Assembly (NCBI RefSeq): GCF_009754915.1
Contig: NZ_WPIK01000018.1
Coordinates: 1-64,000, forward strand
Origin: Mucilaginibacter arboris
Lineage (GTDB): Bacteria; Bacteroidota; Bacteroidia; Sphingobacteriales; Sphingobacteriaceae
DNA: 64,000 nt
Reading direction: 5' to 3'
The notes under the pieces are model-generated. The model saw only the letters and a list, made by a program, of their open reading frames with translations. It was not told the origin of the DNA and ran no database searches. The translations under genes and the position numbers were made by a program. Every line of letters begins with the position of its first letter. Within the stretch, counting starts at the first letter, position 1. Below are positions 12,640 through 59,663 of the stretch, piece after piece.

Positions 12640-12772
12640 TAGTAGTTGGTTTATAGTTGATGGTTCATAGTTGATAGAAAACCGCAACAAACCATGAACA
12701 ACGAACCAATAACCAACTACCATGAACCAATAACCATGAACCATGAACCATGAACCATCAACCATGAACAAA
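12640..12772 (+). repeat. GAACCAT heptamer repeats with imperfect inverted repeat
   Basis: GTAGTTGGTTTATAG at the left faces ATAACCAACTACC further right, forming a long imperfect hairpin. It is followed by tandem ACCATGA units (three or four clear heptamers at about 12734-12768). The repeat contains ATG in successive frames and runs into the frame of the next gene. Confidence 0.7.
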
Positions 12773-16686: not shown

Positions 16687-16709
16687 TTTTTGCCCCATAA
16701 AAGAAGCAT
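16687..16709 (+). repeat. Short dispersed element copy
   Basis: TTTTTG-CCCCA-TAAAAGAAGCAT, beginning 14 bases upstream of the ClC gene ATG (which is on the minus strand). Confidence 0.82.
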
Positions 16710-16826
16710 TGTTTGCAGGCGCCATCAGCCACTATTGGCGGTTGTGTTCAGGAAGACACCATTTCCTGTTTGATTTGCACAAATATAAAAGAAAGTTTTT
16801 AAAATTAATTTTATCAGATTTTTTTG

Positions 16827-25013: not shown

Positions 25014-25198
25014 AGAATTTTGATGTTGCTTATATTAATCTACAAAATAACCTATATGTTTTACAAAAGTTAATCATTTGATTAACATATTACCGTAGGA
25101 GGCTAAAAATCAGGTCATTAAGAATTTTTGTAATTTAATTTTTACATAAACAAAAATTTATGCTGAGGAAAATAGTGGTATAAATAGCATTTTTATTG
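25014..25198. other. AT-rich upstream region of the efflux operon
   Basis: This is a gene-free stretch between the efflux operon and the repeat block. I see no clear operator or hairpin; the operon promoter should be here. Confidence 0.4.
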
Positions 25199-25862
25199 AA
25201 GTTGTTTAAACTTTTTTCCTGGTTTTCTTTTTTTAGGCTAATGCTTCTTTTATCACCTAAAAATTTAAGCATCGTTTCTTTTGATTTAGAAATGGTTTAA
25301 ACTTTTTTCTGGTTTTCTTTTTTAGGCTGATACTTCTTTTATCACCTAAAAAACTTGATCACCGTATCTTTTGATTTAGAAATGGTTTAAACTTTTTTCC
25401 TGGTTTTCTTTTTTGGGTCGATGCTTCTTTTATCACCTAAAAAATTTGACCATCGTTTCTTTTGATTTAGAAATGGTTTAAACTTTTTTTCCTGGTTTTC
25501 TTTTTTGGGCCGATGCTTCTTTTATCACCTAAAAATTTAAGCATCGTTTTTTTTGATTTAGAAGTGGTTTAAACTTTTTTTTCTGGCTTTCTTTTTTTAG
25601 GCGGATGCTTCTTTTATCACCTAAAAATTTGAACATCGTTCTTTTTGATCTGTTTAAATAAATGCAACACCAGTTTTTACCCGGTAAAAGAAGCATTAAT
25701 TGATTGTTGATCGGGAAAAGTTTAAACAAGTACATTGCTAAAAATTTGAACATCGTTTTTTTTGATCTGTTTAAATAAACGCAACACCAGTTTTTACCCG
25801 GTAAAAGAAGCATTAACTAATTGATTGTTGATCGGGAAAAGTTTAAACAAGTACATTGCTAA
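25199..25862 (+). repeat. Tandemly amplified composite element (five left units, two right units)
   Basis: Five units of 90-91 bases start at GTTTAAAC positions 25204, 25295, 25385, 25476 and 25567. Each continues with a T-rich stretch, TTTTCTTTTTTAGG or a variant, ATGCTTCTTTTATCACCTAAAAA, and in units 1-4 TTTTGATTTAGAAATGG or a close variant. They are followed by two units of about 117-121 bases (from 25621 and 25738), each with GATCTGTTTAAATAAA, TTTTTACCCGGTAAAAGAAGCAT in opposite orientation, and GGGAAAAGTTTAAACAAG. The block ends inside the 3' end of the macro-domain gene. Open frames inside it are repeat artefacts. Confidence 0.9.
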
Positions 25863-26389
25863 AAATAATCCAGGTACTTTCTTATCAGATTAAAGTTTTC
25901 CTCATCATAACAAACAAAAATTACTTGCATAATTTCATTACTGCCTTGCATGAAATTTCGAACTGCTTGTACAGCAATACGTGAGGCTTTTTCTTTTGGA
26001 AAACGATAAACGCCCGTACTGATATTGGGAAAAGCAATGCTGGTTAACCGATGTGCCGCTGCTAATTTTAAAGAATTGGTGTAACAATCTGCTAATTTTT
26101 CTTCCTCCTGTTTTTTGCCGCCATTCCAAACAGGCCCAACCGTATGGATAACATATTTTGCAGGAAGATTGCCACCAGTGGTAATTACAGCTTCACCGGT
26201 TGGGCAACGGCCTAGCCTGGCTACAATTGCTTTACACTCTTCCAGAATTGTTTTACCACCAGCACGATGGATTGCGCCATCAACTCCTCCTCCGCCTAAT
26301 AACGATGAATTAGCGGCATTTATAATTGCATCTGCCGCAATTTTTGTAATATCGCCCTGAACAACTTGCATGTCTTGCTTATCTGGCAT
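25859..26389 (-). CDS. Macro domain ADP-ribose-binding protein (YmdB-like deacetylase)
   Basis: This 176-residue single macro domain has QGDITKIAADAIINAANSSLLGGGGVDGAIHRAGG at about residues 11-45, the catalytic/ADP-ribose loop of O-acetyl-ADP-ribose deacetylases, and FPNISTGVYRFPKEKASRIAV at about 120-140. Such enzymes hydrolyse O-acetyl-ADP-ribose or remove ADP-ribose from proteins or nucleic acids. The stop codon lies at the very edge of the tandem repeat block, so the C-terminal residues (YLDYF) border repeat DNA. It is separated from the glcD-like gene by 40 bases. An internal Met at residue 7 is an alternative start. Confidence 0.9.
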   Translation of the reverse strand: MPDKQDMQVVQGDITKIAADAIINAANSSLLGGGGVDGAIHRAGGKTILEECKAIVARLGRCPTGEAVITTGGNLPAKYVIHTVGPVWNGGKKQEEEKLADCYTNSLKLAAAHRLTSIAFPNISTGVYRFPKEKASRIAVQAVRNFMQGSNEIMQVIFVCYDEENFNLIRKYLDYF

Positions 26390-26413: not shown

Positions 26414-26438
26414 ATACTGTTTTTATGCACTAAAAAAT
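26414..26438 (-). repeat. Short dispersed element, ACAG variant, overlapping the glcD-like stop
   Basis: ATACTGTTTTTA-TGCAC-TAAAAAA. The stop codon TAG of the oxidase gene (26430-26432, minus strand) is the TAG of TTTTTTAGTGCATAAAAACAG. Confidence 0.75.
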
Positions 26439-27827
26439 CTTGCCCGGATTTAAAATGCCGTTTGGGTCGAAAACTTTTTTAATACCGCGCATCAGGTTTA
26501 AATGGATTTCAGAAAATTTAAGCGGCATGTAACCCTTCTGCACCAAGCCAATTCCATGTTCGCCAGATAAAGTTCCGCCTAAAGAAATGGTTAATTCAAA
26601 AATTTCGCGGATACCGTTTTTAAGATTATTGTTCCAGTCGTCATCGCTCATATTTGCTTTGATGATGTTTACATGCAAATTGCCATCGCCCGCGTGTCCG
26701 TAGCAAACCGATTCAAAACCATATTTTGCACCAATTGCTTTAATACCTTTCATCAGTTGCGGTAAAGCTGCACGCGGGACTACCGTATCTTCTTCTTTAT
26801 AAACTGAATTTGATTTGACCGATACAGCCATTGTTCGGCGTAAACGCCAAAGTTCTTCTTTTTGTGCCGATGAACCTGCAAACAATACCTCTGTACAATG
26901 ATGCTGTTCTAAAACTTCGTTGATCTTTTCACAATCAGAAAATAAAACATCCTGATTATTACCATCTACTTCAATCAACAAAAAAGAAGAAACTTCGGGT
27001 TTTAGGTCAAAGCTGATGGCATCATGTTCCATTACCCACTCTACCCCTTTCCGTTCCATAAATTCTAATGCCGAAGGAATTACACCGGCACGGAAAATTG
27101 CAGAAACAGCAGAACAGGCATCTTCATCCGTTTGAAAAGAAGCCAGCAACAGCATATCTTGTGTTGGTTTTGGCACTAATTTAACTACAATTTTAGTGAT
27201 GATACCCAATGTCCCTTCCGAACCGATCATCAGTTGCGTAAGGTTATAACCGGAAGCAAATTTCAAAGTATTAGCACCCGTCCAGATGATTTCTCCTGTT
27301 GGCAAAACCACTTGCAGATTTAAAATATATTCCCGTATTGTTCCGTATTTTACAACTCTTGGTCCACCGGAACCGTGCGAAACATTTCCGCCAATAAAAC
27401 AAGAACCTTTACTGGCCGGATCAACCGGATAAAGCAGCCCTTTCTCTGCCGCTGCATCCATAAAAACTTCGGTAATTACACCGGGTTCTACTGTAGCCTG
27501 CAAGTTATCTTCATCAATTTCCAGGATGTGGTTAAATTTTTCCATTGCCAGCAGCAAACCACCATTTACCGGTAAAGCACCACCACTTAAACCAGTACCT
27601 GCGCCGCGGGGCGTAACCGGAATTTGATTTTGATTAGCCAGTTTCAACAATTCAGAAACCTGCTCCGGCGTTTGCGGCTTTACTACTACCTGCGGATAAA
27701 AATGCAAGTCTTCCGTTTCATCGTGACTGTAATTTTCCAGATCATTTTGATCGGTAAAAACAGCATCAGTGCCAGCAATAACTTTGATTTGCTGCAGGAT
27801 ATCTTCGTTAATTAAATTAAAACTCAT
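26430..27827 (-). CDS. FAD-linked oxidase, glycolate oxidase/D-lactate dehydrogenase type (GlcD-like)
   Basis: This 465-residue FAD-binding oxidoreductase has the PP-loop FAD motif TPRGAGTGLSGGALPVNGG at about residues 75-95, then GGNVSHGSGGPRVVKYGTIREYI and the C-terminal substrate domain with CYGHAGDGNLHVNI and SGEHGIGLVQKGYM. The family oxidises 2-hydroxy acids such as glycolate or D-lactate; the actual substrate is not determined by sequence. Length is normal. The ATG overlaps the folB stop (ATGA), so the two genes are translationally coupled. The start codon lies within a dispersed element (GATAAAAGAAGTATGA). Confidence 0.9.
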   Translation of the reverse strand: MSFNLINEDILQQIKVIAGTDAVFTDQNDLENYSHDETEDLHFYPQVVVKPQTPEQVSELLKLANQNQIPVTPRGAGTGLSGGALPVNGGLLLAMEKFNHILEIDEDNLQATVEPGVITEVFMDAAAEKGLLYPVDPASKGSCFIGGNVSHGSGGPRVVKYGTIREYILNLQVVLPTGEIIWTGANTLKFASGYNLTQLMIGSEGTLGIITKIVVKLVPKPTQDMLLLASFQTDEDACSAVSAIFRAGVIPSALEFMERKGVEWVMEHDAISFDLKPEVSSFLLIEVDGNNQDVLFSDCEKINEVLEQHHCTEVLFAGSSAQKEELWRLRRTMAVSVKSNSVYKEEDTVVPRAALPQLMKGIKAIGAKYGFESVCYGHAGDGNLHVNIIKANMSDDDWNNNLKNGIREIFELTISLGGTLSGEHGIGLVQKGYMPLKFSEIHLNLMRGIKKVFDPNGILNPGKIF

Positions 27828-34207: not shown

Positions 34208-34273
34208 GAGGTTGTTTAAACTTTTTGGTACCAATTTCAATTTGGTCCTCCAATATGCCCAGGTTTGGTGCCC

Positions 34274-34297
34274 ATGCTTCTTTTACCGGGTAAAATT
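34274..34297 (-). repeat. Short dispersed element copy within composite element
   Basis: ATGCTTCTTTTA-CCGGG-TAAAATT followed by GGTGTTTG, the same context as at 57821 (reverse strand) and 59080. Confidence 0.85.
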
Positions 34298-34310
34298 GGT
34301 GTTTGTATTT

Positions 34311-34361
34311 AATCACTAAAGACCTATAAGGTTTTGAAAACCTTATAGGTCTTTAGTGATT
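34311..34361 (+). repeat. 25-base perfect palindrome (ACCTATAAGGTTTT arms)
   Basis: Left arm 34311-34335 (AATCACTAAAG then ACCTATAAGGTTTT), one central base, and an exact complementary right arm 34337-34361. The copy at 57767-57806 keeps the left arm but has lost the outer part of the right arm. As RNA this would be a very stable hairpin. I recall ACCTATAAGGTTTT-type palindromes as frequent in Bacteroidota. Confidence 0.85.
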
Positions 34362-34370
34362 GGTTAATAT

Positions 34371-34393
34371 TTTTTAGCTGATAAAAGAAGCAT
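34371..34393 (+). repeat. Short dispersed element copy within composite element
   Basis: TTTTTA-GCTGA-TAAAAGAAGCAT followed by GGGCACC, which complements GGTGCCC in front of the copy at 34274. Confidence 0.85.
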
Positions 34394-34424
34394 GGGCACC
34401 AAAAAACAAACCTAACGACCAACA

Positions 34425-34447
34425 TTTTTAGGCGATAAAAGAAGCAT
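34425..34447 (+). repeat. Short dispersed element copy within composite element
   Basis: TTTTTA-GGCGA-TAAAAGAAGCAT followed by CGGCCC and an A-rich stretch leading to the right terminus. Confidence 0.85.
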
Positions 34448-34627
34448 CGGCCCAAAAAAAGAGGGCCAGAAAAAAAGTTTAAACAACTTCGTTTTTAGTA
34501 TTTTATCTTTTCGCTAACAAAAAAAATTATTTAAAAACAGAACCAGGAAAAAGAGCGTATAAAATACCCCATTTTGTAGAAAAGATGTAAATATAAAAAC
34601 GGCTAAAGTTATTACGATTAAAAATAT

Positions 34628-57671: not shown

Positions 57672-57714
57672 GAAGTTGTTTAAACTTTTTTTCTGACCCT
57701 CTTTTTTAGGGCCG

Positions 57715-57738
57715 ATGCTTCTTTTATCACCTAAAAAA
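57715..57738 (-). repeat. Short dispersed element copy within composite element
   Basis: ATGCTTCTTTTA-TCACC-TAAAAAA preceded by AGGGCCG. Confidence 0.85.
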
Positions 57739-57820
57739 TGTTAACCATTATTTTTTTGATCGATTTAATCACTAAAGACCTATAAGGTTTTCAAAACCTT
57801 ATAGGTTATGTAAACACCAA

Positions 57821-57843
57821 TTTTTACCCGGTAAAAGAAGCAT
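57821..57843 (+). repeat. Short dispersed element copy within composite element
   Basis: TTTTTA-CCCGG-TAAAAGAAGCAT preceded by AAACACCAA. Confidence 0.88.
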
Positions 57844-57907
57844 GGCACTAAACTTGGGCATGCCGTAGGATCAAATTTAATTGGCACCAAAAGTTTAAAC
57901 AACCTTG

Positions 57908-59009: not shown

Positions 59010-59079
59010 GAAGTTGTTTAAACTTTTAGGCTCCGTTTAAATAGGTACAAGGCCCTTCGATAGGTTCAGGACCGTGCCA

Positions 59080-59103
59080 ATGCTTCTTTTACCGGATAAA
59101 AAT
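59080..59103 (-). repeat. Short dispersed element copy within composite element
   Basis: ATGCTTCTTTTA-CCGGA-TAAAAATT followed by GGTGTTTG. Confidence 0.85.
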
Positions 59104-59148
59104 TGGTGTTTGCTCGCATTTAAATAATCAAAAAAACAATGGTCAACA

Positions 59149-59171
59149 TTTTTAGCTGATAAAAGAAGCAT
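59149..59171 (+). repeat. Short dispersed element copy within composite element
   Basis: TTTTTA-GCTGA-TAAAAGAAGCAT preceded by GGTCAACA, as in the copy at 34425 (ACCAACA). Confidence 0.85.
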
Positions 59172-59234
59172 CAACCTAAAAATCAAAAAAACAAGGCCTG
59201 CTTAAAATTTATTCCCTAATTTTTTGTATGCTTC

Positions 59235-59447
59235 TTTTTTTGGCTAAAGCCGCTGCCTGTGTTTCTACCACCCACGGCCTAAAGGCCGTGGCAATTTTAA
59301 AGCGTAGTTTTTAAGACAACCTTTGTTTACCAATGCTAAATTGCGCTGTGCGGACAGGACGTCCGGGCCAGGTTTTAATTACTGGCCGTTGCCACGGCCT
59401 TCAGGCCGTGGACAAAGGATAAGCGGCAACAGGCTTTAGCCAAAAAA
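59235..59447 (-). repeat. Repeat family B, copy 2, nested in composite element
   Basis: Ends TTTTTTGGCTAAAGCC and GGCTTTAGCCAAAAAA. Internal palindromes are CCACGGCCTAAAGGCCGTGG (59272-59291) and CCACGGCCTTCAGGCCGTGG (59392-59411). Its reverse complement matches the left half of the copy at 53866 (AAAGCCTGTTGC ... CCTTTGTCCACGGCC). A further hairpin GGACAGGACGTCCGG is at 59352-59366. Confidence 0.75.
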
Positions 59448-59526
59448 CCAAAACCACCAAACATTTAAAAAATCATGGCATAAAAGGGGCATCAAACAAA
59501 AGGACAAAATTTAAACAGGCCCTAAC

Positions 59527-59549
59527 ATTTTATGTGATAAAAGAAGCAT
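59527..59549 (+). repeat. Short dispersed element copy within composite element
   Basis: ATTTTA-TGTGA-TAAAAGAAGCAT. Confidence 0.82.
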
Positions 59550-59581
59550 CAACTATAGAAATTAAAAACCAGCGGTTAATA

Positions 59582-59604
59582 TTTTTAAGCGATAAAAGAA
59601 GTAT
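59582..59604 (+). repeat. Short dispersed element copy within composite element, GTAT variant
   Basis: TTTTTA-AGCGA-TAAAAGAAGTAT, before the G-run and the right terminus. Confidence 0.8.
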
Positions 59605-59663
59605 CAACCCCAAAAAAAAGGGGGGGGGGAGAAAAAAAGTTTAAACAACTTCATATTCAAAAA

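Follow-up and report, generated by a model that had tools for sequence, protein, structure and literature searches.

The stretch analyzed here (hereafter the window) comprises 64,000 nucleotides from a draft genome of Mucilaginibacter arboris (G000), which totals 4.16 Mb in 83 contigs. A block of repeated DNA runs as far as the stop codon of an adjacent gene with a macro domain (ORF 25859-26389, minus strand; Pfam Macro match, E 3.2e-49), and about 185 bp past its opposite end lie TolC-like, HlyD-like and AcrB-like genes that point away from it. In the window, TRF resolves the block into two abutting tandem arrays, one at 25204-25649 (period 91, 4.9 copies, 90% match, score 677) and one at 25621-25866 (period 117, 2.1 copies, 95% match, score 446), with 29 bp (25621-25649) common to both. 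Unit alignment yields five left copies of 90-91 bp and two right copies of 117-121 bp. The left units, which are headed by GTTTAAAC and start at 25204, 25295, 25385, 25476 and 25567, are 78-93% identical to one another, U3 and U4 being the most alike (93%), and between the right units R1 and R2 there are two substitutions and one 4-bp indel. Each unit carries one copy of a short element, the word TAAAA(GA|AC)AG[CT]AT preceded by an A/T tract at -11..-8, so that the block holds seven words in about 650 bp. The features of the block are as follows.

25195..25197, unstranded: left target-site duplication ATT, with ATT also after the right end
25198..25215, plus: left terminal inverted repeat GAAGTTGTTTAAACTTTT
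25204..25294, plus: left unit U1, 1 mismatch in 79 against the sibling element
25241..25252, minus: uptake-like word in U1, reading ATGCTTCTTTTA on the plus strand
25295..25384, plus: left unit U2 (TRF, unit alignment)
25330..25341, minus: uptake-like word in U2, GTAT form
25385..25475, plus: left unit U3, 93% identical to U4
25421..25432, minus: uptake-like word in U3
25476..25566, plus: left unit U4 (TRF, unit alignment)
25513..25524, minus: uptake-like word in U4
25567..25649, plus: left unit U5, which retains the continuation into the right half
25605..25616, minus: uptake-like word in U5
25621..25737, plus: right unit R1, with host-derived ATTG at its end (25734-25737)
25685..25696, plus: uptake-like word in R1
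25738..25858, plus: right unit R2 (unit alignment)
25802..25813, plus: uptake-like word in R2
25837..25854, minus: right terminal inverted repeat, with the end AAGTAC, as in the sibling
25855..25857, unstranded: right target-site duplication ATT
25859..25866, unstranded: host CTAAAAAT, which covers the macro-domain stop codon and is one of the two repeats joined in the right duplication

A preliminary description made from the letters of this DNA had recognized five left and two right tandem units abutting the macro-domain gene; TRF and the unit alignment bear this out, and the right array does reach the stop codon. It had also let the halves meet once, at about 25621. The right unit indeed starts there, inside left unit 5 and directly past its short element, but the junction is not a clean point, as the arrays overlap by 29 bp. 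CRISPR, which that description had already dismissed, is rejected here too, since whole units follow one another head to tail with no unique spacers between them. Given a draft assembly in 83 contigs, the block might be thought an assembly artefact. However, its units diverge by 7-22%, and another locus of the same genome (L053) likewise has repeated left ends; with left units 78-93% identical and right units that differ, it is unlikely that the assembler multiplied identical reads, and we regard an artefact as highly improbable. Elsewhere, the window contains a 21-bp tandem array at 12690-12769 (AACCATCAACCATGAACCAAT, 3.8 copies) and, on the minus strand at 16709-16775, a fluoride riboswitch (Rfam RF01734, 52.6 bits).

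The block stems from a single insertion and belongs to a dispersed, MITE-like family with 18-bp terminal inverted repeats. Three more members lie in the window.

34208..34490, unstranded: second family member, with one left and one right end and the target duplication GTT
57672..57906, unstranded: third family member, again with one end of each kind, target duplication not matching
59010..59652, unstranded: fourth family member, target duplication ATA

A 17-bp part of GAAGTTGTTTAAACTTTT has 55 + 56 copies in the genome at no more than one mismatch, against none for the reversed control, and in two other genomes of the genus, G001 and G002, this end pattern was counted 21 and 10 times (reversed controls 1 and 0). 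Among the fetched loci of G000, a non-exhaustive set, there are at least 58 clusters of ends, 37 of which are simple left-right pairs. Matching 3-bp target duplications flank 27 of the 39 clusters used from these 58 (the 37 simple pairs, the present block and L053), compared with a mean of 4.8 and a maximum of 12 in 2,000 shuffled pairings; this result is the best of 12 length-offset settings tried, and two LRLR clusters, one LL cluster and 16 single ends (L and R denoting left and right ends) were left out. AAT and ATT together account for 15 of the 27 matching duplications. The present block has ATT on either side, which marks it as a single insertion. Thus, the two features by which MITEs are recognized, terminal inverted repeats and a target-site duplication, are both found. 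This also speaks against the suggestion in the preliminary description that the halves are separate units of mobilization: the element inserts as a whole, with inverted repeats at its borders and the 3-bp duplication in 27 of 39 cases, and separate mobility of the halves is rejected for a block that ATT flanks on both sides.

Forty-two clusters are longer than 100 bp; both ends are present in 41, which measure 152 to 1,464 bp. The 42 contain 117 copies of the word, with at least two in 41 of the 42 and one to eight per element. Ends are repeated in other members as well, as LLLR in L053, LL in L082 and LRLR in L077 and L083, the last two of which may be neighboring elements. We know of no element that combines the family ends with a transposase of its own, 15 single-end loci having been examined within their fetched flanks, and L081, a 1.1-kb candidate for an autonomous element, spans an unrelated small ORF. 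No DNA similar to the block was found in phage and plasmid collections. Beside the right end of the long element, at 59620-59629 of the window, there is a run of ten G in an otherwise A/T-rich genome. In G001, a 94-bp unit consisting of two inverted words and a related middle occurs in at least about 25 places among the matches listed, at 73-83% identity, and might represent this element in a reduced size.

The origin of the tandem units can be read in part from a single-copy sibling in the same genome (C12:211622-211794, locus L003). Among the members in the fetched loci, it gives all seven units their best bit score, although shorter matches to other members show similar identity. U1 differs from it by 1 mismatch in 79, and U2-U5 by 3-6 mismatches plus gaps; with U1 nearly identical to the sibling and the other left units not, the sibling could be a later deletion product of the block. 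At the right side, host-derived ATTG sits between the two right units and is followed by CTAAAAAT, an octamer found both at the start of R1 and in the host DNA at 25859-25866. Host bases within the right duplication, together with the joining of two CTAAAAAT octamers, indicate that the right unit was copied at this site once the element had inserted, with slippage or recombination at short homologies as the probable mechanism. At the left junction the sequence is GATTTAGAAATG or GATTTAGAAGTG, which may include host flank too. The two copies of TGTTTAAA in the sibling are 86 bp apart, near the unit length of 90-91 bp, and lack the junction bases; the left junction is not the clean product of nearby TGTTTAAA repeats.

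We suggest that a MITE-like element with GAAGTTGTTTAAACTTTT terminal inverted repeats inserted downstream of the macro-domain gene, and that its left and right parts would then have undergone duplication at the site, through slippage or through unequal exchange between short direct repeats. Insertion of such an element followed by duplications in place is very probably correct as an account of the block, while the recombination mechanism and the order of events are what we infer from junctions and unit similarities. The distinct left and right arrays agree with the earlier view that the halves expanded separately, and the joined CTAAAAAT octamers with their host bases, as well as the single-copy sibling, with its proposal of a slippage-like origin. 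As for its proposal to order the duplications by unit divergence, U3 and U4 are the closest pair (93%) and U1 is nearest the sibling, but this does not fix the order. The orthologous site in G001 holds one degenerate, different, single-copy element in the opposite orientation, and G002 has no element there. The macro-domain gene is absent at this place in G001, and in G002 both it and the adjacent oxidase-like gene (26430-27827) are absent.

The block alone is fairly ordinary, a MITE with tandem duplications in place; the real find is the word it carries. In its 14-bp form (GRTAAAAGAAGCAT) the word has 667 + 690 = 1,357 exact copies on the two strands of G000, against none for the reversed control; the counts are 1,479 and 711 for two congeners and 0-1 for 38 other relatives. 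Likewise, the wider GRTAAAARMAGCAT occurs 1,638 times in G000 and 1,761 times in G001, with no more than 10 copies in any of the other 298 genomes searched. Across the other genera covered by the searches, the frequency of the word is close to what chance would give. The four-word motif was counted with the block masked and amounts to 196 copies in 280.8 kb of G000, 50 in 55.2 kb of G001 and 159 in 200 kb of G002 (0.70, 0.91 and 0.80 copies per kb); the reversed control gave none in any of the three. With the block likewise masked, TAAAAGAAGCAT is the top-scoring 12-mer in the G001 and G002 samples; in G000 its score is below that of GGTAAAAGAAGC, but by count it comes first among those listed. 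A second form in this ranking is TAAAAACAGCAT. Over the three sets there are 195 copies of TAAAAGAAGCAT, 53 of TAAAAACAGCAT, 45 of TAAAAGAAGTAT and 42 of TAAAAACAGTAT, and 8 and 7 of the single-step intermediates TAAAAAAAGCAT and TAAAAGCAGCAT. The consensus is sharp: the exact word (195, block masked) outnumbers its one-mismatch variants (120, of which 45 are the GTAT form), while 21 control words average 0.19 and 5.3, respectively.

The word is not confined to the family, as 48 of the 64 four-word copies in the window lie outside the four elements. In the G000 samples, 88% of which are called ORF (mechanical calls of at least 90 aa, longest first), 108 copies are non-coding, 73 genic and 15 at edges; sites are intergenic, intragenic and, as close inverted pairs, at the 3' ends of genes. 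Genic copies, analyzed with the block set apart, translate as VKEA or KRS in the mechanical ORFs. A 'desert' of words on contig C1 disappeared once the AC and GTAT forms were added. No comparable word was found in five other genera, sampled at 20-80 kb each, and the top words of one of these samples (G005) resemble tRNA sequence. A 23-bp form gave no match in viral contigs, and among genome contigs a 26-bp form matched only those of an uncultured Mucilaginibacter assembly and of Sphingobacteriaceae bacterium Lichen_MAGs_lobaria3.

The word has two further properties. The first is the A/T tract: positions -11..-8 are all A/T in 64 of 73 genic copies in G000, 17 of 21 in G001 and 66 of 74 in G002 (block masked), where composition would give 14%. 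It contains A as well as T, which a requirement of structure would explain more readily than descent from a single copied element. The second is the way in which sites change. Orthologous sites in alignable DNA differ mainly by substitution, not by insertion. Among 122 word comparisons in alignments with G001 and G002, which count each common site from both genomes and favor conserved regions, 62 retain a word (52 TAAAAGAAGCAT, 10 TAAAAACAGCAT) and 10 show an exchange between GA and AC; gaps remove at least 6 word bases in one comparison and 1-5 in ten, and the other genome has 1-17 extra bases in five. For these counts the block was masked, alignments of fewer than 300 columns and two paralogous L105-L151 alignments were dropped, and words within 20 bp of an alignment end (25 bp in an earlier alignment pass) were excluded.

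These properties can be set against the idea that the word is a mobile repeat of the REP/REPIN type, spread by a Y1 (IS200/RAYT-like) transposase, and that the block is a REP cluster. Pfam finds two Y1 transposase genes in the genome. One is an IS200-like gene (L086:1200-2030, gene at 1417-1851) whose ends have a REP-like repeat around CCACGGCCTAAAGGCCGTGGCAATTG; a repeat similar to the latter lies inside the long element, at 59240-59440 of the window. The other, which we take to be RAYT-like, is situated between GGGATTTGCAATCCCGA repeats (L087:1230-2230) and has a piece of its own 3' end duplicated downstream. Two words lie within 200 bp of the L086 gene on either side, an arrangement seen in just 1 of the 229 ORFs of the G000 samples (33 of 229 have at least one per side), and this flanking favors a link between word and transposase. 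The frequency of inverted pairs and the 94-bp unit of G001, bounded by two words and present in at least about 25 places among the matches listed, point the same way. However, each Y1 gene has other, palindromic repeats of its own nearer its ends, and the L087 gene has no word within 300 bp. A repeat of this type arises by insertion, but the alignable sites differ by substitution, with only 1 of 122 comparisons lacking six or more word bases. Moreover, genic copies read as protein (VKEA, KRS), the A/T tract swaps A for T, and the word is sharp. The REP/REPIN reading is disfavored, and we regard it as unlikely.

A role in transcription termination is suggested by the close inverted pairs, which were analyzed with the block set apart. 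There are nine such pairs, none of them in the 55 kb of G001, and the midpoints of all nine lie 3-67 bp from the 3' end of an ORF, compared with 25% of random intergenic positions within 67 bp in the G000 samples. Three pairs were folded and proved stable (-23.8 to -28.4 kcal/mol), each better than 200 of 200 shuffles. Neisserial DUS are said to act as terminators, and the pairs found here could do so as well. That the word is mainly a part of a terminator and multiplied for that reason is hard to believe, as 73 of the 196 copies in the G000 samples are inside ORFs, the samples contain only nine close pairs, and a terminator does not need one fixed word.

A more serious competitor is that the word is a site for a chromosome-organizing, recombination (Chi-like) or other intracellular DNA-binding protein, which the element carries by descent. 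A word combined with an A/T tract at a fixed distance resembles the recognition site of a protein, and a type IV pilus was not detected with the T2SSE and N_methyl models. Furthermore, all 117 words in the family elements are of the GA type (GA-only and both-type patterns alike give 117), as simple descent would give. Against this reading, polar sites have unbalanced strand counts, whereas those of the word are balanced over all contigs (667/690), the orientation of contigs being arbitrary. Exact copies also exceed one-mismatch copies (195 versus 120), which the available portion of PMC1626085 describes as typical of uptake sequences and unlike the sites of regulatory proteins. We regard an intracellular binding site as a real possibility, although a less than probable one.

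The reading that we prefer is that the word functions in DNA uptake. According to this idea, cells that import free DNA would prefer word-bearing fragments, and biased transformation would accumulate the word. In the portion of PMC1626085 available to us, USS and DUS are characterized by about one copy per kb, unbiased orientation, somewhat regular spacing, close opposite pairs, a preference for non-coding DNA, although many copies are genic, and an excess of perfect over one-mismatch copies, with A/T-rich flanks in USS. All of these are found here except regular spacing, which was seen in G002 only: spacing variation no greater than observed arose in 18 of 500 simulations for G002, 380 of 500 for G000 and 454 of 500 for G001. 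As with USS, which the same source in its available part shows to be non-insertional by the same kind of test, a comparison of proteins, sites in alignable DNA change mainly by substitution; copy number is high, close opposite pairs occur, orientation is unbiased, and the flank is A/T-rich. DUS, as far as the available text of PMC2397512 goes, are absent from recently acquired genes; here, word density is 0.37 per kb in genes shared with relatives and 0.29 in unshared ones, a weak test with 27 and 11 copies, in which the block was left out of the intergenic count only. Both known uptake-word systems use type IV pili in the account of PMC12616744 at hand, and for such a pilus two profile models gave T2SSE only below the cut-off (22.9 versus 24.9 bits) and no N_methyl match. 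ComEC is present, as it is in 10 of 14 control genomes. Some other route of uptake is conceivable.

Taken by itself, a function of the word in uptake has in our view about an even chance, and it is called putative here. We lean, somewhat beyond even, toward the combined statement that the block is a MITE-like insertion and that its genus-specific word likely works like a DNA uptake sequence. The element itself might benefit from carrying the word. It would be tempting to go further and propose a third independent code for uptake of self DNA, in Bacteroidota, with interchangeable GA and AC words, an A/T tract, no recognizable type IV pilus and MITEs that have acquired the words and ride transformation between cells, the present block having raised them to seven. 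This proposal is speculative, and we consider it quite possible but short of probable. In the accessible part of PMC12616744, the use of such words is said to be known from two families only, Neisseriaceae and Pasteurellaceae, and the open-license literature yielded no uptake sequence described for Sphingobacteriaceae. A preference for its own DNA has been reported for one member of Bacteroidota, Riemerella columbina, with A/T-rich k-mers as candidates whose function was left open in the available text (PMC7965970). If the proposal is true, this third case, which comes from a different phylum, uses a word unrelated to the other two and apparently works without a type IV pilus, would mean that such codes evolve repeatedly. 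It would also indicate an unknown DNA receptor, render the origin of uptake words testable, and make these MITEs mobile elements that bear the uptake tag of their own host.

Among known systems, MITEs resemble the family in being short and dispersed, with terminal inverted repeats and a target duplication. The family differs in its several uptake-like words and in having no known autonomous partner, and in the present copy the left and right parts have been amplified separately. REP/REPIN sequences with RAYT are similar in that the repeats are short, abundant and often in inverted pairs, with words on both sides of one Y1 gene, but the alignable sites here change by substitution and the Y1 genes are closer to other repeats. 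We do not file the word as a member of DUS or USS. With the USS of Pasteurellaceae (AAGTGCGGT, with A/T-rich flanks), as described in the text available to us, it shares a density of about one per kb, a sharp consensus, an A/T tract at a fixed distance, the lack of insertion gaps, opposite pairs and two word types in a family. However, the word is unrelated, belongs to another phylum and has a single tract, upstream as written; a type IV pilus was not detected here, and uptake is putative. The DUS of Neisseriaceae, in the available parts of PMC2397512 and PMC3630211, likewise have several word types ('dialects') and are mostly intergenic with some genic copies, whereas the word here is unrelated to them and the pilin signal was not found. 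Finally, DUS have no flanking motif according to the available portion of PMC1626085, while the word described here has its A/T tract.
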